DNA of 39,596 bases from a virus. The stretch is taken from positions 1-39,596 of the IMG/VR virus record IMGVR_UViG_3300028024_000018. One strand, written 5' to 3'. This document shows positions 13,428 to 34,300 of this stretch, in pieces. Every line of letters begins with the position of its first letter. The stretch's first letter is position 1. Both the position numbers and the translations under genes were made by a program. The notes beneath the pieces were generated by a model, which worked only from the letters and a program-made list of their open reading frames with translations, searched no databases and was not told the DNA's origin.

Positions 13428-15986
13428 TTATTGTTCTAGTGAATCTTGTCCAGCTTGATCAGGCGCATGGGGATCTGGAGCGTTGCTGATAGTGCTCATC
13501 AGGTTGTCCATCTCTCCGCTCATTTGCATGTTGATGCCAGTAAGCGCTGTCGAGAATGCTTGCTCTGTAGACTGGAATGTCTCAGCGAACATTGCTTGCT
13601 CAGCTTCAGGTGAAACACCAGCCTGGAACGCCGCTTGCTCACGCTGTGCAGAGATAGCGAGGATCGCTTTCAACTGCTCGATTTCCTTTTGCTTCTCTAG
13701 CAACTGCATCTTCAGTTGGAAGTCCATGTGGCGCTGCTCATTGTCTGACTTAGCCTGCGCAGTAATACGCATCGCATCCAATTGCGCTTGGCGCTCTTGT
13801 CGCTGCTGGTCTGCTTGTGCCTTTTGCTGCTGGATTTGCACTTGAGCTTGCATATCTGGCGACATCTGTGGAGGTGGCAATTGTGGAGTTGGTGAAGTTG
13901 GCTTGTGAACAAACTCGCCCACGTTCGCAACACCCAAAGCGCTCAACAAACGTTCGACCGTGTTGTACATAAGGTTCAAATCGGCCATGCCTGTATGCTG
14001 TTGCAGCGCTTGCATTTGCAGGCTCAATACCTGCTGCATAGCCGCTACTGTGCGTGATTGGTCGCCTGTTCCCAGACCAACTTGAACGTCCAAGTCGTAT
14101 TGGTTTCGTGCGTCTGTTGGATCGGCTTCCATTGTTTGACCATTCATGCGAACTTGCATGATCTCGTCTGGATGCTCTGCTAACAGCTTCTGAATACGGA
14201 TGGCGCCTGGCTTAACACCAGTCTCTGCAAAGTGACGTGCGATAAGCTTTGTGCGTGACTCTGAACGGTCTGTCATTGCCAGATAGCCGGTAGCAGTCTC
14301 GTTCACGATATCCGCATCGTTACCGCGTGTCAGCTTCTGTACGCCTGTGTGCTCTTGCTTGATTGTGTCGAACAGTTCTAGCAACTGGATCGAGGATGCG
14401 ACATCACCGCTGCTGTTAGGAACGACACCAACCGCTTCGTTACCGTTGCCATCTACTGGCACGATTGAACCGGGGCCAATGTCAAGCACGTGAGTCAGAT
14501 CGACCTTGCTTGCATCAACCCACAAAGCTGCGTTTGAACCGTGGCTAATGTTGTCGATCATTGATCGCATTACTTGGGTATTCTGCTTCTGTACGTTGAT
14601 CGCCAGTTCTGCAACGCTTAGACCGAACAATGAGTGCTGGATAGGCACGCTGGTCATAACGCAGAACGGATTGCCATCGCATGGCTCGTTAAGCAAGATG
14701 GTGTTCCCTGCTTTCATAATCTTGCGCCACTCGGCAATACCGTCGCCGTCATAGTCCATTAGCAGGTATGCTTCGACAACGAGCACTTCACGCAGACTTG
14801 CATCGCGGTCAGCATTTGCATAGTCAAACGCGTTGGCTTCGCCCATGCGGTTACGTGCGAGGTAGTATTCAGTCAGTGCTGGATCGTCTTCGCGGTCTTC
14901 AATGCTCTCTAGCAAGTCCTCGTCAAAGCCCATTACACGAAGGTCAGAGATTGTCATGCGTCGTGCGTGTGCAGCGTAGCGAGCGTCTTTGATGCGTCGT
15001 GCTGTTGGATCAACGAAGAACTCTTCCAGCGGAATGTTGATGATGCGGATACTTCCCTTCTTCCCATCAGGCACACGAACGATCTTAACGTCGTGCAGCA
15101 TTTGGCTGATGGCAGGAAGATTTGGATCGACTTGCGTGTTTGCAGCGATCTGCATGGGGTTAGCACCCGCTTGCGCTTGCTGTTGAATCTGTTGTGTTAG
15201 AGCAGGTGCTTGTTCGCCTTGTACATTGGCACCGACCATTGCCAAGCCGTGCTGTAGCGTGGTCAGTTCTTCAAGCTGTGGGTTTTGGTATTCTTTGTGA
15301 CCGATGATCTGGCATTCGCCAGCCATAGCTTCGAGAGCGATAGCACCAAACTCAAGGTCAGAGATGCCTTCGTAACGGGTTACTTCAGTCTTGCTATCTG
15401 GTTCCCAGAAAATCTTTACGATGCCACCCGGTGCGATCAATGCGTCACGAATCCATGTACGCATGACCTCGTAACCATCGTTCTGTTGCCATACGTGGTT
15501 GACCATTGCGTTGGTCATTTCCGCGGAGCGTTCTTGCGCGCTGTTACGAGCGATGAAGTCCACAATCTTTTGCGTACCGCAGAATGCTTCCACAAGCGGA
15601 CATTCGAGCCAGTACACGGTGTCTGCTACTGAGGTGTCTACAAAGTCTGAGCGACCTTCACCAGTTGGTTTGAAGTCTCCCTCTGGCTGTGCGAAGAAAT
15701 ACTCCATGCACTTTGTTGCTCGGTGCATGACTTTGTTGCGCACGTAGTCTTTAGCGCGTTCTTGGTACTGGTTTACAATCGAAAGAACTTCTTCCTCAGA
15801 CTTACGCTTACTACCTGTCTCGCCTGTGATATCAACAGACGCATCCATGACAGGACCGTTATCTTGTGGCAATACGCCGGGCAGGATATGAGACAGTTGG
15901 GCTTGCAACTGCTGCTTTACCAAGTCTTGGTCTGGTGCGTCTTGAGGGATGATTGTTGTTGGGCTTGTTGTTGTTTTTCTAGCCAT
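13428..15986 (-). CDS. Portal protein (P22/SU10-like)
   Basis: An 852-residue portal, the dodecameric ring through which DNA is packaged and ejected. The long N-terminal body has portal-like features: W-L-E-C-P-L-V-E-A-F-C-G, D-G-D-G-I-A-E-W-R-K-I-M (typical of P22_portal members), and S-L-F-G-L-S-V-A-E-L. The C-terminus (about 690-800) is a Gln/Ala-rich coiled coil that could form the long barrel inside the head. The length is larger than P22 gp1 (725). It is unusual in lying downstream of the capsid gene instead of directly after terL. A TAAATA-containing element (16022-16029) precedes it, so it may have its own promoter. Confidence 0.87.
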   Translation of the reverse strand: MARKTTTSPTTIIPQDAPDQDLVKQQLQAQLSHILPGVLPQDNGPVMDASVDITGETGSKRKSEEEVLSIVNQYQERAKDYVRNKVMHRATKCMEYFFAQPEGDFKPTGEGRSDFVDTSVADTVYWLECPLVEAFCGTQKIVDFIARNSAQERSAEMTNAMVNHVWQQNDGYEVMRTWIRDALIAPGGIVKIFWEPDSKTEVTRYEGISDLEFGAIALEAMAGECQIIGHKEYQNPQLEELTTLQHGLAMVGANVQGEQAPALTQQIQQQAQAGANPMQIAANTQVDPNLPAISQMLHDVKIVRVPDGKKGSIRIINIPLEEFFVDPTARRIKDARYAAHARRMTISDLRVMGFDEDLLESIEDREDDPALTEYYLARNRMGEANAFDYANADRDASLREVLVVEAYLLMDYDGDGIAEWRKIMKAGNTILLNEPCDGNPFCVMTSVPIQHSLFGLSVAELAINVQKQNTQVMRSMIDNISHGSNAALWVDASKVDLTHVLDIGPGSIVPVDGNGNEAVGVVPNSSGDVASSIQLLELFDTIKQEHTGVQKLTRGNDADIVNETATGYLAMTDRSESRTKLIARHFAETGVKPGAIRIQKLLAEHPDEIMQVRMNGQTMEADPTDARNQYDLDVQVGLGTGDQSRTVAAMQQVLSLQMQALQQHTGMADLNLMYNTVERLLSALGVANVGEFVHKPTSPTPQLPPPQMSPDMQAQVQIQQQKAQADQQRQERQAQLDAMRITAQAKSDNEQRHMDFQLKMQLLEKQKEIEQLKAILAISAQREQAAFQAGVSPEAEQAMFAETFQSTEQAFSTALTGINMQMSGEMDNLMSTISNAPDPHAPDQAGQDSLEQ

Positions 15987-20648: not shown

Positions 20649-21074
20649 TTAGTCAATAGCGCGGTATATGCTTCTCGCTTCTGGGTGCGTTGCTACATAG
20701 TCGCGCAGCTTGTCCCAATGCTCGATCAGCTTTTCGGTTAGCGCTTCGTCTTTTCCGCTCGCTTCCCACATGAGCGTGTTGAGTGCGAACAGGGTGAATA
20801 CGATGCCGGCCGCGTCGGCAGTCATTTCCCCGTCATAGTCGTTGGTAGTCACTTGCAGGCGAAACAATGCGGGGTTTGCTGGTGCAGCGAAGCCGCTGCC
20901 GTTGCTCAACGTGTAGAACTCCCAGTGGCCGCGTTGGTAGCTGTCAGGCGCTAGTTGCTGTGCGTAGTCGTACAGCATTGCTTCGCCTCGCATCATCAGC
21001 TTGGGGCCGAACAGCATGGGTAGGAAGCTCACACGTTGCGCTGTAGGTACTGCTGTAGCGGTGATCTTAGGCAT
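20649..21074 (-). CDS. ardB: ArdB/KlcA-type antirestriction protein
   Basis: A 141-residue protein that in its family blocks type I restriction enzymes, protecting incoming DNA. Motifs: R-V-S-F-L-P-M-L-F-G-P near 13-24, a Y..GHWEFYTLSNGSGF-like core, N-D-Y-D-G-E-M-T-A-D-A-A-G-I-V-F-T-L-F-A-L-N (the diagnostic G-E-M-S/T-A-D-A-A-G-I signature) and C-terminal L-R-D-Y-V-A-T-H-P-E-A-R-S-I-Y-R-A-I-D. The start at 21074 is chosen for its GGAG and agreement with family length; an upstream start would add 24 atypical residues. It stands between the BrnTA terminator and the membrane-protein gene as a defence-evasion moron. Confidence 0.93.
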   Translation of the reverse strand: MPKITATAVPTAQRVSFLPMLFGPKLMMRGEAMLYDYAQQLAPDSYQRGHWEFYTLSNGSGFAAPANPALFRLQVTTNDYDGEMTADAAGIVFTLFALNTLMWEASGKDEALTEKLIEHWDKLRDYVATHPEARSIYRAID

Positions 21075-21136
21075 TTCGTACTCCGTTGTTTTAGGAGCTT
21101 GAGGATAAAGTCTGCCAGTTTGCCAATCACCTAAAG

Positions 21137-21159
21137 AAAAAGGCACCCGTAGGTGCCTT
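21137..21159 (-). terminator. Terminator after brnTA
   Basis: AAGGCACC / GGTGCCTT, 8 bp with a 4-base loop, followed by UUUUUC on the leftward transcript. It separates brnTA from ardB. Confidence 0.85.
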
Positions 21160-24005: not shown

Positions 24006-24236
24006 TCTCGAATTACCATCGAGCCTTTCCGTTTAGAATTTCTTGGAATTCTTCGCGAATGTCGCAAGCTCCCCATGTCAATTCGATGTAATACAATAGG
24101 GTGTAGACGTGATAGCGGTAATCTTCAATCGTATTTCGAGAAGAAGTTCTGAGAACAATCAATGAGTTGTTCCCGAAGAATTCCATGAGGTATTCGTGAA
24201 ATACTCCGATGAAGTATTCGCGAAGAAAAGCCTCGA
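24006..24236. other. Cluster of TTCnnGAA-type dyads, candidate origin or operator array
   Basis: Within 230 bp there are repeated variants of TTC-N-CGAA / TTCG-N-GAA, including TTCTCGAA near 24008, TTCGCGAA near 24053, TTCGAGAA near 24130, TTCCCGAA near 24172, TTCGTGAA near 24193 and TTCGCGAA near 24218. ATGARGTATTCGYGAA recurs with a 25-bp period (24186 and 24211). TTCTTCGCGAAT at 24051 is the inverted match of 24217-24228. Position beside the polymerase-like gene suggests an origin or operator. Part may instead be coding (24013-24186). Confidence 0.35.
24013..24186 (-). CDS. Hypothetical small protein (uncertain)
   Basis: A 57-codon frame from ATG 24186: [39 protein letters not shown], ending N-G-K-A-R-W. 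The composition looks protein-like and rich in aromatics. The frame is open to 24246 but only via TTG, and neither start has a good ribosome site. It overlaps the TTCnnGAA dyad cluster, so the repeats could be the real feature. Low confidence. Confidence 0.35.
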
Positions 24237-24328
24237 AGGCAATCAATTAGAAAAACAATAATGCTCTTTGGCATTAAAAAATTGCGCACTTCAGGTATTT
24301 GATGGATTTTCTGGCGCGCGCTATCCTG

Positions 24329-24336
24329 TATAAATA
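24329..24336 (+). promoter_or_regulatory. TATAAATA box of the candidate small RNA
   Basis: TATAAATA lies five bases before the first hairpin of the candidate RNA, a plausible -10 distance. Upstream -35 similarity is weak. The same TAAATA core precedes many other units in this phage. Confidence 0.4.
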
Positions 24337-24340
24337 CGAT

Positions 24341-24413
24341 GGGCGTGCAATGCGCCCGCTGTCATTATTTTTAGTGGTTCTTCGAGGGAAGCTGTGGTGG
24401 CTTCCCTCTTTTC
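24341..24413 (+). ncRNA. Candidate small regulatory RNA upstream of the polymerase-like gene
   Basis: About 70-75 bases with no frame. It opens with a 5-bp hairpin (GGGCG / CGCCC, 24341-24357). A single-stranded U-rich segment follows (24365-24377). It ends in a 9-bp terminator hairpin (GAGGGAAGC / GCTTCCCTC) with UUUU. The 13-base segment TTATTTTTAGTGG is perfectly complementary to CCACTAAAAATAA at 24494-24506, in the leader of the next gene. The layout of promoter, 5' hairpin, target-binding segment and terminator is that of a small RNA. Expression and action are inferred. Confidence 0.5.
24384..24412 (+). terminator. Intrinsic terminator of the candidate small RNA
   Basis: A perfect 9-bp stem (24384-24392 / 24400-24408) with a 7-base loop, followed by TTTT. 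It lies 100 bp before the polymerase-like gene. It would end a short upstream transcript or attenuate read-through. Confidence 0.75.
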
Positions 24414-24424
24414 ATTGGAATATT

Positions 24425-24444
24425 GCGAAATCCCGCTATTTCGC
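24425..24444 (+). repeat. Second hairpin in the polymerase leader region
   Basis: GCGAAAT / ATTTCGC, 7 bp with a 6-base loop, followed by TTATTTT. It may be a weak second terminator or a protein-binding site. GATAAATA (24462-24469) and TATAAG (24472) follow, with TTGCGT 16 bp before the latter, giving a possible promoter for the next gene. Confidence 0.45.
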
Positions 24445-24493
24445 TTATTTTGCGTCTGCTTGATAAATAATTATAAGAACCCGGCCTTACCAG

Positions 24494-24506
24494 CCACTAA
24501 AAATAA
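24494..24506 (+). promoter_or_regulatory. Leader segment complementary to the upstream small RNA
   Basis: CCACTAAAAATAA, ending 8 bases before the ATG at 24515, pairs perfectly with 24365-24377. The leader has no Shine-Dalgarno sequence. Pairing here would cover the translation initiation region. Confidence 0.55.
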
Positions 24507-24514
24507 AAATAATA

Positions 24515-25630
24515 ATGACGACAGCAGTCCTTTCAGGTACATACGTACCAAATCTCACAGATAAACATTATAAAGAGCGTACGCTCAAGCGCATTAAGTC
24601 CGCGTATGGCTGGGCATTAGCGGTATTGGGCGACGAACCGCGCGAATTAGCTAAAACTTGGATCGATGATCATCTCGGCCAACAGCAAAATCCGCTTTCC
24701 CAATGGCTCCGATCAAAACTACTGCGCTGCACAGATAATCACTTCTCGTTCGGCTCAGATAAAGCCGTTTGCAAAAAGTACGCGCTGAACCGAACCGGTG
24801 TCGATGAAGTACGGAAAATATTACAAGGCGCAGAACCAACACCCGCCAATGCGAAAATCGGCGCAGTTCAATCAGATACAGACGCCGTGTTCGACCTGAA
24901 GCTGGTTCAGTACTGGGTCACGCACGCATACGGTAAAGAGCTTGAAACCCTCGAATTCGAGTACACGGAGAAAGAGAGTGCCAGACTTTGGCATCCGCTG
25001 CAAAATCTTCGTAAGACCGCGAAAGAACAGGTCTGGAACGCAGCCGGCCTGAAATACAACTACGACATCAAGGCTTGCGCACCAACACTCATCCTCCAGC
25101 ACGCACAAGAACTGGGGATGGACGAGTACCTGTTCGGGATCAACGACTACTTGAAGAACACTGCTGACTTCCGCCAGCACATTTCAGCAATCGCAAACAT
25201 CCCTTTGAAAGACGCAAAGGTACTAGTCAACGCGTTGTTCTGCGGCGCACGACTTGGCGCAAGCAAGGAATTCGCGTTATTTGCTCTGGTTGATTTCGAT
25301 CGCGAGAAGATCACAGCATTGCAGAACGACGCACGCCTCACACAGCTACGTGAAGACATTAAGACCTGCTGGAAAGCAATCGAACCCTCTATGCCTGCAA
25401 TGCAGAACGCAAAGGGACGCAAGCTACCGCTCAACTCACGTCGTAAATGGAATCGCTATTTCGAATTGGAAAGACGTGTTCTGAATGTTGTTCGTGCAGA
25501 ACTGCAACAAGCAGGTATCAAGTGCTTTCTGGAACATGATGGATGGCGTTCTGACACAGCTCTAGATTTGATGCAATTGGAAGAGATTGTGTATAAAGAG
25601 ACCGGATACAGAATTACGATAGTTGCTTGA
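24515..25630 (+). CDS. Minimal single-subunit polymerase-like replicase/primase (putative)
   Basis: A 371-residue protein and the only replication candidate in the phage. Three blocks resemble palm-polymerase motifs in order. Motif A-like Y-N-Y-D-I-K-A-C-A-P-T-L-I-L-Q (181-195) carries Asp184. Motif B-like L-K-D-A-K-V-L-V-N-A-L-F-C-G-A-R-L-G (231-248) has a basic residue, Asn and Gly as in K...N...G. Motif C-like C-F-L-E-H-D-G-W-R-S-D (337-347) carries His-Asp. A conserved-looking helix E-L-E-R-R-V-L-N-V-V-R-A-E-L precedes motif C. No exonuclease, helicase or zinc domain is seen. It is not a reverse transcriptase (no YxDD). Polymerase is my inference from these motifs and genome context; the family is not named with certainty. 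Confidence 0.6.
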   Translation: MTTAVLSGTYVPNLTDKHYKERTLKRIKSAYGWALAVLGDEPRELAKTWIDDHLGQQQNPLSQWLRSKLLRCTDNHFSFGSDKAVCKKYALNRTGVDEVRKILQGAEPTPANAKIGAVQSDTDAVFDLKLVQYWVTHAYGKELETLEFEYTEKESARLWHPLQNLRKTAKEQVWNAAGLKYNYDIKACAPTLILQHAQELGMDEYLFGINDYLKNTADFRQHISAIANIPLKDAKVLVNALFCGARLGASKEFALFALVDFDREKITALQNDARLTQLREDIKTCWKAIEPSMPAMQNAKGRKLPLNSRRKWNRYFELERRVLNVVRAELQQAGIKCFLEHDGWRSDTALDLMQLEEIVYKETGYRITIVA

Positions 25631-25633
25631 AGA

Positions 25634-25662
25634 TTACCACAGCACCACTAACACCCTATTAT
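25634..25662 (+). promoter_or_regulatory. Sigma70-like promoter for the 25679 gene
   Basis: TTACCA (25634-25639), 17-bp spacer, TATTAT (25657-25662). The start site would fall about 8-10 bases before the ATG at 25679, giving an almost leaderless mRNA. No ribosome site is visible there. Confidence 0.45.
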
Positions 25663-25678
25663 ATTAGATCAAAACACC

Positions 25679-25909
25679 ATGCCAACACTCGAAGAACTTC
25701 AACGGCTATCGAAAGACGCAAGCTATTGGTTAGCCAACGACAAAGGCGCTATGAACGCCTTGATGATTCTGCAACACAAGATCGCGCAAAACGAGCCATT
25801 AGCGCAAACGCAGATTGACGGTTTGGAACGCATCAAACGCAAGCTAAACATGGCGCGTCTGGAAGCTTTCCGGCCTAAAGACATAGACTTTGATCACTGG
25901 CGCCGATAA
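25679..25909 (+). CDS. Small helical protein after the polymerase-like gene
   Basis: A 76-residue protein of unknown function: M-P-T-L-E-E-L-Q-R-L-S-K-D-A-S-Y-W-L-A-N-D-K-G-A-M-N-A-L-M-I-L-Q-H-K-I-A-Q-N-E-P-L. It looks wholly helical, with a basic patch (G-L-E-R-I-K-R-K-L-N-M-A-R-L) that could bind nucleic acid. It lies 48 bp downstream of the polymerase-like gene with its own possible promoter and no Shine-Dalgarno sequence. A replication accessory or regulator role is plausible by position only. Confidence 0.65.
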   Translation: MPTLEELQRLSKDASYWLANDKGAMNALMILQHKIAQNEPLAQTQIDGLERIKRKLNMARLEAFRPKDIDFDHWRR

Positions 25910-28990: not shown

Positions 28991-29503
28991 ATGCAATTCG
29001 ACGCAAACAAAGCGAACAACCTGATCATTATCAGCAAAGAAGAGGTGCCCGACTTCTGGCACGTGATTCAACCCGGCCTCAAGTACATGGTGGAAGAGAA
29101 GCGCAACCCTGACGGGTGGACACCAAAGATCGTGTTCGACGCGCTGTATCAAGGCAAAGCATCTTGTGTCTTTACATCAATCTTCCGCAGCGAAGACCCA
29201 AAGCTTGGCTACAAGAACCGCGATGCAGCTATCGAAGACAGTTGCGGATTCGGCATCGTGCAGGTTCTTGACGGCCCAGACGGCAAGGCATTCCACATCT
29301 GGATTGCGGTTAGCAACGACACGACAAACAAAGCGCAAGCACCATCAATCCTGACTACGTTTCATGACGAGGTTTGGCAGCTAGCTAAAGATGCTGGGTG
29401 CAAGTACATCACATTCGGCAGCAACCAGAAATGGTGGGCCGATCTAGCACCGCGTTTCGGCTTTGAAGTGCAAGAGGTTAAGTACCGCGTGGAGGTCAAG
29501 TGA
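28991..29503 (+). CDS. Phage protein, possible GNAT-like fold
   Basis: A 170-residue protein with AAAGGAGAAG upstream. The segment F-T-S-I-F-R-S-E-D ... F-G-I-V-Q-V-L-D-G-P-D-G-K-A-F-H-I-W-I-A-V, then I-L-T-T-F-H-D-E-V-W-Q-L-A-K-D-A-G-C-K-Y-I-T-F-G-S-N, W-W-A-D-L-A-P-R-F-G-F-E-V follows the strand-helix-strand-R-x-G-F order of small GNAT acetyltransferases found beside phage structural genes. The acetyl-CoA R/Q-x-x-G-x-A loop is not clear, so activity is doubtful. Stop fused with the next start (TGATG). Confidence 0.7.
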   Translation: MQFDANKANNLIIISKEEVPDFWHVIQPGLKYMVEEKRNPDGWTPKIVFDALYQGKASCVFTSIFRSEDPKLGYKNRDAAIEDSCGFGIVQVLDGPDGKAFHIWIAVSNDTTNKAQAPSILTTFHDEVWQLAKDAGCKYITFGSNQKWWADLAPRFGFEVQEVKYRVEVK

Positions 29504-29925
29504 TGGAATACACATTGGCCGACCGAAACAAATACCACGCGCAGAAATGTGGGGCACGCATACGAGGCATCGACTTCAATCTCACATTTGATCAATGGTG
29601 GGATTGGTGGCAACAAACTAGAAAGTATCCGCAACGCGGAAAAGGTAAAGGGAAATACGTGATGGCTCGGTTCGGCGACATTGGCCCTTACGAGCTTGGA
29701 AATATCTACTGCTGCACTCATGGCGAAAACGTCACAGCAGCGCATAAGGGCGTTAAGCGGTCGCAAGCACATCGCGACAAACTCAGCGCAGCAAACCTTG
29801 GCAAGGTGCATGGGCCTCGTTCACAGGCAACGAAAGACCGTATCAGCGCCGCGCAAAAGGGGCGAGTATTCAGCGAAGAACATAAGGCGGCGATCCGCGC
29901 TGCTAAAGCAAAAGGAAAAAACTGA
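29503..29925 (+). CDS. HNH-like endonuclease with NUMOD3-type repeats (paralogue of 458-916)
   Basis: A 140-residue protein. N-terminal half: R-N-K-Y-H-A-Q-K-C-G-A-R-I-R-G-I-D-F-N-L-T-F-D-Q-W-W-D-W-W, then Y-V-M-A-R-F-G-D-I-G-P-Y-E-L-G-N-I-Y-C-C-T-H-G-E-N, the same layout as the left-end gene and the I-HmuI-like HNH core. The C-terminal half has three NUMOD3-like repeats (S-Q-A-H-R-D-K-L-S-A-A-N-L-G-K, A-T-K-D-R-I-S-A-A-Q-K-G-R, S-E-E-H-K-A-A-I-R-A-A-K-A-K-G-K). GGAGG precedes the ATG. It is tightly fused to genes on both sides (TGATG twice), so it is built into the operon rather than a loose insertion. Confidence 0.75.
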   Translation: MEYTLADRNKYHAQKCGARIRGIDFNLTFDQWWDWWQQTRKYPQRGKGKGKYVMARFGDIGPYELGNIYCCTHGENVTAAHKGVKRSQAHRDKLSAANLGKVHGPRSQATKDRISAAQKGRVFSEEHKAAIRAAKAKGKN

Positions 29926-30384: not shown

Positions 30385-30438
30385 ATGTAACAACAAAACA
30401 CGCTCGGATTGGAGAGCGGCAAGCAGCGGAAACCAAAG

Positions 30439-30945
30439 ATGACAGAACTCACACAAGAGGCGCTAAAAAGCGTCCTGCATTACAGCCCAGAGACAGGGCT
30501 ATTCACCTACCTCGTAGATCACAAGCGCCACAAAGCTGGCGACATTGCTAACGGCAAGACAGACGCTGGATATATCCAAGTGTCCGTGTTCGCTAAGAAA
30601 TACTACGCACATCGCCTCGCGTTCTTCTACATGACAGGCGCGTTTCCCGATGCACTGGTTGACCACATCAACCGCGTTACGGCCGACAACCGTTGGTCGA
30701 ACCTGCGTCCCGCTACTCCAGCACAAAACACTTTCAATAGCCGTCTCCGCAAGGACAACACAAGCGGCTATCGCGGCGTCTGCAAATCAGGCAACGAATT
30801 TTCCGCATACGTAACCTTTGAACGAAAGCGCCACTACCTCGGCAATTACAGCACGGCTAAAGAAGCTGGTGATGTCGCAGCGGCAGCACGCTTGAAGTTC
30901 TATGGTGAGTTTGCAGGCCCAACAACAACTACAAAAGGGGCATGA
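30439..30945 (+). CDS. HNH endonuclease with C-terminal AP2 domain
   Basis: A 168-residue protein typical of free-standing phage homing nucleases. Residues 57-90 give A-H-R-L-A-F-F-Y-M-T-G-A-F-P-D-A-L-V-D-H-I-N and D-N-R-W-S-N-L-R, the HNH core with D75-H76, N78 and N88. Residues about 108-160 (S-G-Y-R-G-V ... F-S-A-Y-V-T-F ... Y-L-G-N-Y-S-T-A-K-E-A-G-D-V-A-A-A-A-R-L-K-F-Y-G-E-F-A) are an AP2 DNA-binding domain. I use ATG 30439; a TTG ten codons earlier is open but less likely. It sits at the head of the fibre module, a common insertion place. Confidence 0.9.
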   Translation: MTELTQEALKSVLHYSPETGLFTYLVDHKRHKAGDIANGKTDAGYIQVSVFAKKYYAHRLAFFYMTGAFPDALVDHINRVTADNRWSNLRPATPAQNTFNSRLRKDNTSGYRGVCKSGNEFSAYVTFERKRHYLGNYSTAKEAGDVAAAARLKFYGEFAGPTTTTKGA

Positions 30946-31320: not shown

Positions 31321-34300
31321 GTAACAACAACGACAACACACAACTCATATTCACGCTTGAAGGAGACCAGAACCAGCTAGTAGCTAACTTCGGTCCATTC
31401 TTGCCAATGCAGCTTCCAAACACGCTGCAAGATATGGTGAACACAATCGCTGATGCGCAAACATCAGTGCAAGGTGCGAGCGACGCCGCTAACACGGCAA
31501 CAGCACAAGCCAACTTGGCTCAAGCTAGCGCGAACAACTCAGCAGCAAGTGCAGCACAGGCGCAAACATACGCGACTACGGCAACCACTCAAGCTTCTAA
31601 CGCTTCTACTAGCGCAACGAATGCCCTTGGTAGCGCCAACGCGGCGAAGACCTCAGAGAACAATGCAAAGACATCTGAGAGCAACGCGAGCGCAAGCGCA
31701 GGAGCAGCATCACAAAGCCAAACAGCGGCAGCTACATCAGCCACGAATGCGGCTACAAGCGCAACAGCAGCAGCAAGCAGCGCGACAGCAGCTAGCGCAA
31801 GCCAAACAGCAGCGGCAGGTTCCCAGACAGCAGCAAAGACCTCTGAGACCAACGCTAAGACTTCCGAGACAAACGCGGGTAATAGCGCTACAGCGGCAGC
31901 AACAAGCGCAAGCACAGCCACAACTCAGGCAACGAATGCGGGTAACAGCGCAACAGCAGCGGCTACATCAGCGACTAACGCGGGCAATAGCGCAACGTCA
32001 GCTTCAACAAGCGCGAGCACCGCGACAACACAGGCGACTAACGCAAGCAACTCCGCAACAGCAGCGGCTACATCGGCAACCAATGCGGCAACTAGCGCGA
32101 CAGCAGCGGCAGCTTCTGCAAACGGGCTTAACGGCATCGTAACTGTTCCTGTTACCTCATCAGCAATGACGCTGTCAACCGCGCAGTTTGGTAACGGCAT
32201 GATCGTTTTCACTGGCGCTCTCACAGCGAACACAACAATCACTGTCCCTGCTACTGCTCACCCATTCATTGCTGTCAACAACACGACAGGCCTTTTCAGC
32301 CTGACGTTCGCAATGACTGGCGGTTCTAAGACAGTCGCTGTTCCACAAAGCAAAGCGGGTTCACTGTACTGCGACGGAACAACAGGAGTGGCCGGTGCAT
32401 CATCAAGCACTTCAGGCTTGCAGTTCTCCAAGCATACGGAAGTCACTGCTGACACGACGCTTGATCTGACACATGCAGGTTCGATCGTAATTGTTAAAAC
32501 GGCAGGCGTGTCAATCACATTACCCCTTGCAATCAGCTACCAAGCAGGCGCCGGTATTGTTGTTATCAACTATTCAAGCGGTGTGGTCTATGTAAAAACA
32601 CAAGGAACAGATGCGACGGACTTAGGCAACTGGGTCAATCTGGCCGTCTGCGACAACATGTTTTACGAGTCAACCGGTACAACTGCTGCATTGGCCTCAG
32701 GCAATGTGAACTGGAAGATTGCAGGCTACAGTAACTGGTTTTCACCAACATACTACGGTTTGACACTGGCTAGTGGCGCACTGAAATTCCCAGACGGTAC
32801 GACTCAGTCCACGGCAAACAGCACAACCGCACCAACAAGCACGCTTTACACACCTGCTGCAAGCGCGACAAAGATCGTCACAAGCGGTTATAACGTAGGC
32901 TTCGTTCAGGTCTACCAAAATGGCGTGCGCCTTGTATCTGGCAGCGACTATACGGCAACTGACGGTACTAACGTCAATCTGACAGTAGCGGCAAGCGGGA
33001 CTGACCAATACGAAGTGCTGACGCGAGTCACATACACGCCATCAATGGCAGTGCAACCAACTTCCGTTCAATACACGCCAAGCGCAGGTGCTACGTCAAT
33101 TACCGTTTCTCCATACTCCGTAGGCTACGTTGATCTGTATATGAACGGTACACGTCTGTTGAAGGGTATCGACTTCACAGCTACAGACGGCACGACTATT
33201 CAGTTCAACGGCTTCACAGCAGCGGCAAACGACTCCTTTGAAGTTGTTAGCCAAACACCAGTTGCGGTAAGCGGGATGCTTCCGCTGATTGGTGGAACGT
33301 TGACAGGGAACTTGGGCTTTAGCGCAACTGGCGCTCGCATTACTGGTGATTTCACAAACGCAACAAGCAACAGCCGCACACTATTTCAATCATCAACAAC
33401 TGATGGTGTGACGTCAGTCGGTGCTATTCCTAACGGCGTTGGCACTACAGCTCAGTTCGCGGCTTACAACAAACCAGACACGACAAACAGCGTGGCCGCT
33501 CGTATGGGCGTCAATGCAGCCGGTGTCTATTTGGATTCGTATGCTAATGGCTCAGCAACCGCAATGGCTTTGCAATTACAAATTGGCAGCGGCCCAAAGC
33601 TTACGATTGAACCCACATACGGCTTTGTTGGTATTGGTAAAACACCACTTGGCACATCAAGCTCATCACACGGCCGTTTGCAGGTTCAAGGCGCGATCAA
33701 TGCAGAAGGTTACGATGGTAGCGGCAATGGCGGTCAAATTCGATGGATGAATAACAACGCAAGTGGTTATGCATCATTTTTCCGAGATGACGGAAGCTCT
33801 TGTTACCTGATGCAGTCAACGACTCCATACGGCAACTTTGACACTAAGCGACCGTTTGTCTTTACCCACACTACTGGAAACGTGGGTATCGCAACTGATA
33901 ACACGTCATACACGACAATCGGTTCGCAAGGCATTTTATCGTCAGCAGCTTTGAGTATTTCAGGTATCGGTGGTGGTTACACTCTGGGCTTGCGTAATTC
34001 AGCATCAACCGGTGGTTCACTGTGGGCAATTGGTCCCGATGCATCAAACAGCTTTGTGGTTTACAACCAAGGAGCAACTGGTTGCTACATTGTCAACGGC
34101 GGAGCGTCATGGGCGTCAAACTCTGACGAGCGACTGAAGAACGTCCGCAGCCAAATTACTGGCGCTCTTGACGCAGTTGGTTCGCTGCAAACAATGCGTT
34201 ATACATGGAAGGAAGACGACGATTACAACACGGCAATGAATTTGCCTGATGACTCACGCGTCTACGTTGGTTTGATTGCGCAAGAAGTACAAGCCGTGTT

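Follow-up and report, generated by a model that had tools for sequence, protein, structure and literature searches.

The locus analysed here raises the question of what a single short protein can do for the replication of a phage in which no other replication gene is visible. The window (the whole stretch of 39,596 nucleotides that was analysed, IMG/VR virus record IMGVR_UViG_3300028024_000018) contains a gene, here called pol, for which a preliminary description had proposed, from three sequence blocks, a minimal palm polymerase acting as primase, replicase or phage transcriptase. The gene is a single intact ATG-TGA frame of 371 codons, and the matching frame of the opposite strand is interrupted by several stops. 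It heads a group of rightward genes and faces a leftward structural operon (about 2.2-23.9 kb). Searches of about 27 other window proteins against Pfam and PHROGs give tail, head, terminase, ejection, endolysin, integrase, HNH and antirestriction matches and no helicase, primase, clamp or polymerase, so that the absence of any other visible replication gene, as first described, holds within the limits of these two collections. Several further small ORFs have no assigned function, and an unrecognised loader or SSB may be among them; the ORF directly downstream of pol (25679-25909, 76 aa) has no Pfam match. The relatives that carry pol likewise encode no recognised helicase, primase or other polymerase: DnaB finds no match in 11 related virus records, and Walker-A proteins of the relatives are mostly terminase-like.

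Other features of these genomes are of separate interest. The antirestriction protein of the window (20649-21146, minus strand) matches Pfam PF03230 with an E-value of 7e-28. Three genes encode HNH-type nucleases (458-916, 29500-29925 and 30409-30945), the first two of which belong to phrog_16521, a family that recurs near pol in many relatives. The gene for a 1095-aa tail fibre contains a 105-bp tandem repeat in 2.3 copies (31868-32111), and a related phage contig (L014, 14406-15182) encodes a protein that looks like a polyphosphate kinase 2 (GRDAAGKS).

The family of the protein had not been annotated before; it comprises 29 aligned phage and prophage members, with two distant relatives on plasmids. 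Members were obtained from IMG/VR (5 loci, then 20) and, further, by a motif scan; matches in a genome collection are a Caballeronia udeis prophage (79% identity) and a Legionella MAG. Mean column identity across the 29 proteins is 45%, and the invariant residues include R157, D184, R220, K235, G244, H341, D342 and G343. The A-, B- and C-like blocks first described are present residue for residue and are conserved above chance. In one relative (L079, 13008-14141, minus strand) pol is split over two frames, which reflects either a broken gene or a sequencing error. The family is rare: the one carrier among 300 sampled genomes of the Caballeronia host family is the C. udeis genome already found. 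Between the window and this prophage (L023) the polymerase is 79% identical, the integrase (13 kb from pol in the window) 56%, and a short neighbouring ORF is common to both, while the rest of the 21 kb stretch compared scarcely matches. Because pol is the sole gene cluster common to all 22 genomes and contigs compared, and is carried by phages with different terminases, it behaves as a movable module.

Sequence searches do not place the family directly. Neither single-protein searches of Pfam, PHROGs and PDB (nothing significant) nor family profiles against the same collections give a polymerase match, and tblastn against 50,697 phage records of INPHARED finds none. Matches to melibiase (best E 0.002), to DUF families and to helicases cover short weak stretches and are judged to be chance; no non-polymerase family exceeds its curated threshold. 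The fold is more informative. An AlphaFold2 model built on 21 sequences (pLDDT 88, pTM 0.80) predicts an N-terminal domain of three helices (17-37, 47-54, 60-69), two wing strands (about 70-74 and 88-91) and a further helix (93-105), that is, a helix-helix-helix-beta wing-helix topology according to DSSP. The predicted core consists of a long helix (123-145), the D184-bearing strand (181-185), the helices of the fingers (188-242; helix O spans 231-242) and a hairpin around D342 (337-346). In Foldseek searches of viral models the best named matches, at E-values from 6e-6 to 9e-5, are polymerase proteins of the Zamilon and Qinghai Lake virophages; phage DNA polymerase I is also among them. Against the PDB this model gives weak matches, mostly to palm polymerases and none at E <= 0.001; a second model, based on a shallow 5-sequence alignment, has T7 DNA polymerase at the top (E 0.002, prob 1.00), followed by reverse transcriptases, mitochondrial RNA polymerase and PadR-type winged-helix regulators. 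The predicted fold matches A-superfamily polymerases, in support of the initial reading; neither a fold lacking a palm nor a confident match to a non-polymerase family, the two outcomes that would have spoken against it, was obtained. The N-terminal domain is likely to be a DNA-binding winged helix, to judge from its predicted topology and weak fold matches; its sequence profile finds no convincing winged-helix family.

The residues of the active site depart from those of known A-superfamily enzymes. Motif A follows the consensus D-I-x-x-[C/S/A]-A, and in motif-anchored alignment the last residue, alanine in 29 of 29 proteins, occupies the position of E710 in E. coli Pol I. This glutamate is the ribose gate of Pol I and excludes ribonucleotides. 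The equivalent of F762 is asparagine in 27 of the 29 (N239 in the window protein), small or polar residues, or methionine, take the place of Y766, and the Pol I R754 equivalent and the aromatic residues of motif B are absent. The position of Y639 in T7 RNA polymerase is not aromatic either. A tolerance of ribonucleotides is predicted from this pattern. R157, in the hairpin ahead of motif A, we take to be the template-strand arginine position of TV-Pol and PolA.

A link to named polymerases is provided by plasmids. The window protein finds, by tblastn, a 538-aa protein of the Polaromonas plasmid pW9NP1 (E 8e-5), encoded directly upstream of the plasmid's RepA. A second plasmid, pH8NP1, also carries a relative, and this protein in turn finds gp030 of Microcystis phage Ma-LMM01 (E 6e-5), in whose genome a TV-Pol element has been described (PMC2579912) and where gp030 adjoins two transposase genes; the E-values of this chain are single-pair values and not calibrated on a database. 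The family profile aligns with the two plasmid proteins at 98.5% probability over the arginine hairpin and motifs A-C; its direct comparison with gp030 is weak (E 0.005, prob 7%). Both plasmids are small Arctic Polaromonas plasmids of the RepA_C type, each with an unannotated A-superfamily polymerase-like gene (L007, 37-1653; L025, 5926-7431). Profile comparisons with canonical PolA, T7-like RNA polymerase and divPolA2 give nothing significant.

TV-Pol (Iyer, Abhiman and Aravind 2008, PMC2579912), exemplified by gp030 and the virophage polymerase-helicases, is accordingly the known system to which the protein is tied both by its best named fold matches and by the sequence chain. Shared with it are a minimal A-superfamily core that lacks a nuclease domain (371 aa, no match to an exonuclease family), a setting in mobile elements or phages, an arginine in the β-hairpin before motif A (R157, also aligned in the plasmid proteins) and two catalytic aspartates, present in 29 of 29 proteins and modelled on strand 181-185 and hairpin 337-346 of an RRM-type palm. 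The differences are equally clear. The fingers RxxxK signature of TV-Pol is lacking: K235 is invariant, and position 231 is L, E, S, P, V, T, Y or Q, never R; aligned gp030 likewise has no RxxxK. TV-Pols are fused or adjacent to a D5-type helicase or to a resolvase, integrase or transposase; here no helicase is recognised in the window or the relatives, and the integrase of the window lies 13 kb from pol. The family further differs in its own N-terminal domain, its paired cis element (see below) and the alanine at the E710 position. Because the RxxxK signature and the helicase or recombinase linkage are absent, the family is not filed under TV-Pol.

The Pfam DNA_pol_A profile finds no match, and A189 and N239 stand in place of E710 and F762 of DNA polymerase I. 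The single-subunit RNA polymerase profile finds no match, and neither Tyr639 nor genome-wide promoters are seen. There is no sequence match to AEP primases, the catalytic fold of ColE2 Rep, and none is among the fold matches listed. The CcPol-MP and PolA-SSB primases of SCC elements (PMC7581432, PMC10061031) resemble the protein in having a PolA-type catalytic domain in a mobile element, and for CcPol-MP use as a primase has been shown; in contrast to pol, CcPol retains E710 and F762 (PMC7581432) and requires an OB-fold partner and a helicase operon (PMC7581432, PMC10061031), an operon not seen here. The divPolA1 and divPolA2 proteins of Caudoviricetes (PMC11348598) are, like pol, divergent phage PolA palms, with a truncated or replaced thumb and, in divPolA2, an extra N-terminal domain. 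Their phages, unlike the carriers of pol, also encode a regular DNA polymerase, and the family profile has no significant match to the divPolA protein AUR84708.

What sets this family apart is a paired DNA element, which is new here. Nearly all of the 22 relatives compared carry its core, ACCCTA[T/G]TGT, within pol or next to it. Usually there are two copies, the first some 300-400 bp from the start of the gene and the second at its end. Both copies of the window lie outside the gene, each with a second block, TTGAAGATTACC; one is strong by profile and the other is recognised by comparison with the first (Table 1). The orientation is inverted in the window and direct in most relatives, several of which carry direct repeats of 40-50 nt flanking the catalytic half of the gene. 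Leave-one-out profiles give 34 hits at E <= 0.02 (one of them from the window; G006 and G012 are near-duplicates). Every one falls in the interval from -430 to +1260 relative to pol, and the remainder of the 503 kb has none; variants in two further genomes (G001 and G004) are seen by eye. A scan of IMG/VR by motif alone returns 43 stretches, 13 of which have two copies; pol is encoded on every one of these 13, and 7 of them are independent of the motif definition. Single matches without pol number 23, about as many as chance would give in so large a collection. The copies of one genome vary together: their right flanks are 89% identical, as against 43% between genomes (permutation p 5e-5). The second copy frequently is non-coding, beyond the stop codon, or lies in a different frame, so that the constraint acts on the DNA, and a duplicated YPIVxQV peptide is ruled out as the source of the repeat. 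Paired, co-varying sites are the mark expected of a sequence-specific reader; homogenisation by recombination is the alternative. The second core is absent from the Caballeronia prophage, the plasmid loci have no copy, and no comparable repeat pair is evident at the Polaromonas plasmid and Ma-LMM01 polymerase genes. Downstream of pol in G004 (13664-13712 region, L031) lie 24-bp direct repeats (AATAAGAACTGGAAATCCTGATAT) of iteron-like appearance, and an inverted repeat that carries a variant of the element.

Table 1. Features of the pol locus, in coordinates of the window.
Feature	Position	Strand	Evidence
Cis element copy 1; core ACCCTATTGTA (24092-24102), minus strand TTGAAGATTACC-N14-ACCCTATTGTATTA	24079..24128	-	Leave-one-out E 8e-3; conserved in Caballeronia prophage
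AT-rich leader between divergent operons	24080..24514	.	Base composition; conserved with L023, unlike most of the surrounding phage
Terminator-like hairpin in pol leader, GAGGGAAGC/GCTTCCCTC	24384..24408	+	Stem kept in L023 by paired change (GGGAAAC/GTTTCCC)
pol gene (P0001), 371 aa, A-superfamily-like palm polymerase	24515..25630	+	Family of relatives; AlphaFold2 pLDDT 88.4, pTM 0.80
N-terminal domain, aa 17-105, predicted winged-helix topology, proposed element reader	24563..24829	+	DSSP on AlphaFold2 model; weak Foldseek matches to PadR family
Predicted catalytic core, aa 120-371 (thumb-like helix, hairpin, palm, fingers)	24872..25627	+	AlphaFold2 models, Foldseek
R157, S-x-R-L-W-H-P-x-Q hairpin ahead of motif A	24983..24985	+	Invariant 29/29
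Motif A, YDIKAC 183-188 with D184, then A189 at the E. coli Pol I E710 position	25061..25078	+	D184 and A189 invariant 29/29; AlphaFold2 strand 181-185
Motif B / helix O, KVLVNALFCGARLG 235-248, with K235 and G244	25217..25258	+	Invariant 29/29; AlphaFold2 helix 231-242
Motif C, EHDGW 340-344, with H341 and D342	25532..25546	+	H341, D342 and G343 invariant 29/29; AlphaFold2 hairpin 337-340/343-346
Cis element copy 2; core ACCCTATTATA (25653-25663), from the pol stop codon, inverted relative to copy 1	25627..25676	+	Comparison with copy 1

The DNA ahead of pol is also unusual. By GC content the 300 bp upstream of the gene rank in the lowest 0.2% of the window, and several relatives have the AT-richest part of their available sequence at the pol end. 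The leader has a folding z-score of -3.4 (window 24300-24530; L023 9540-10046) and no match in Rfam. A 13-bp inverted repeat of the window leader (TTATTTTTAGTGG / CCACTAAAAATAA) would cover the region just 5' of the start codon. Attenuation of pol by leader structures is possible.

A polymerase with its own matching pair of DNA sites suggests a role in finding a start point and making the first primer there. The best explanation, held with moderate confidence, is that the protein is a minimal PolA/TV-Pol-like polymerase with an N-terminal DNA-binding domain, serving as replication initiator and primase of the phage in one. The N-terminal domain would recognise the paired elements in or beside its own gene, their AT-rich flank would open, and the PolA-like active site (D184, D342, K235, H341) would synthesise a short primer; since alanine replaces the glutamate ribose gate, this would probably consist of ribonucleotides. 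Host helicase and DNA polymerases would then take over elongation; reliance on a host helicase fits the lack of DnaB matches and the scarcity of non-terminase Walker-A proteins. ColE2 Rep, a plasmid-specific initiator primase that binds the origin and makes the first RNA primer, which the host elongates (PMC4538821), would work in the same way with an unrelated catalytic fold, AEP rather than PolA-type. The fold class and the element, with its confinement to the pol locus and its co-variation, are results of computation. Here pol is a candidate reader and the element a candidate origin; binding, de novo priming, the sugar used and the hand-over to the host are inferred. Against this explanation stand the missing RxxxK arginine described for TV-Pol, the single profile-strong element copy of the window, the lack of the second core in the Caballeronia prophage, the position of copy 1 inside coding sequence in most relatives, an odd place for an origin, and the two plasmid relatives, which have no element and possess their own RepA. 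Four points go beyond the preliminary description: the element, an N-terminal domain that probably binds DNA, the lost ribose gate, and kinship with TV-Pol and CcPol-MP. Of the three roles proposed there, that of primase, as initiator, is favoured and that of phage transcriptase is not.

The transcriptase would be a miniature T7-like RNA polymerase with the element as its promoter. The A-superfamily fold, with mitochondrial RNA polymerase among the matches, is compatible with this, as is alanine at the motif-anchored position of G542 in T7 RNA polymerase; read as its reverse complement, TAATACAATAGGGT, the element bears a faint resemblance to the T7 start region ATAGGG, and the T7 promoters phi1.1A/B sit just after the RNA polymerase gene. 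However, the cognate-looking element is confined to the pol locus, at about two copies per genome with no promoter set before other operons, and more than two promoters would be needed for phage-wide transcription; together with the non-aromatic Y639 position and the lack of a profile match, this makes such an enzyme unlikely. It is similarly improbable that the protein is a true TV-Pol-style replicase (prim-pol) copying the whole phage genome. The virophage polymerase-helicases among its nearest fold relatives point in this direction, and TV-Pols have been proposed both to prime and to polymerise (PMC2579912), but a helicase would be expected alongside and none is recognised in any relative; the E710 and F762 equivalents are lost, the size is truncated and there is no proofreading domain. 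A third possibility, to which we give little weight, is that the element is read by another factor (a regulator, HNH nuclease or recombinase), for instance as a pair of recombination sites, and that pol serves repair or another role. The direct repeats around the catalytic half, the HNH genes common nearby and a possible homogenisation of the near-identical copies agree with this; yet pol is the sole gene common to all element carriers, HNH clusters are not universal, and the orientation of the pair differs between the window and most relatives. An inactive or decaying relic, as the lost motif B aromatics and R754 equivalent and the split L079 gene might suggest, is very improbable given catalytic D, H and K residues invariant over 29 diverged proteins and long intact frames in nearly all of them.

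To our knowledge, nearly all known primases are of the DnaG or AEP types. The full form of the preferred explanation, which we advance tentatively as a serious possibility, is a self-contained initiator primase of the PolA superfamily, outside both types, which would read its own paired element and prime with RNA, without a phage helicase or SSB, as a module moving between unrelated tailed phages. If this is true, a one-gene initiator of PolA type that reads its own origin would illustrate how few parts a replicon requires, and would offer a compact system for studying primer-independent initiation by a PolA fold. The replication of a set of small tailed phages with no recognisable helicase, primase or conventional polymerase would be explained as well.
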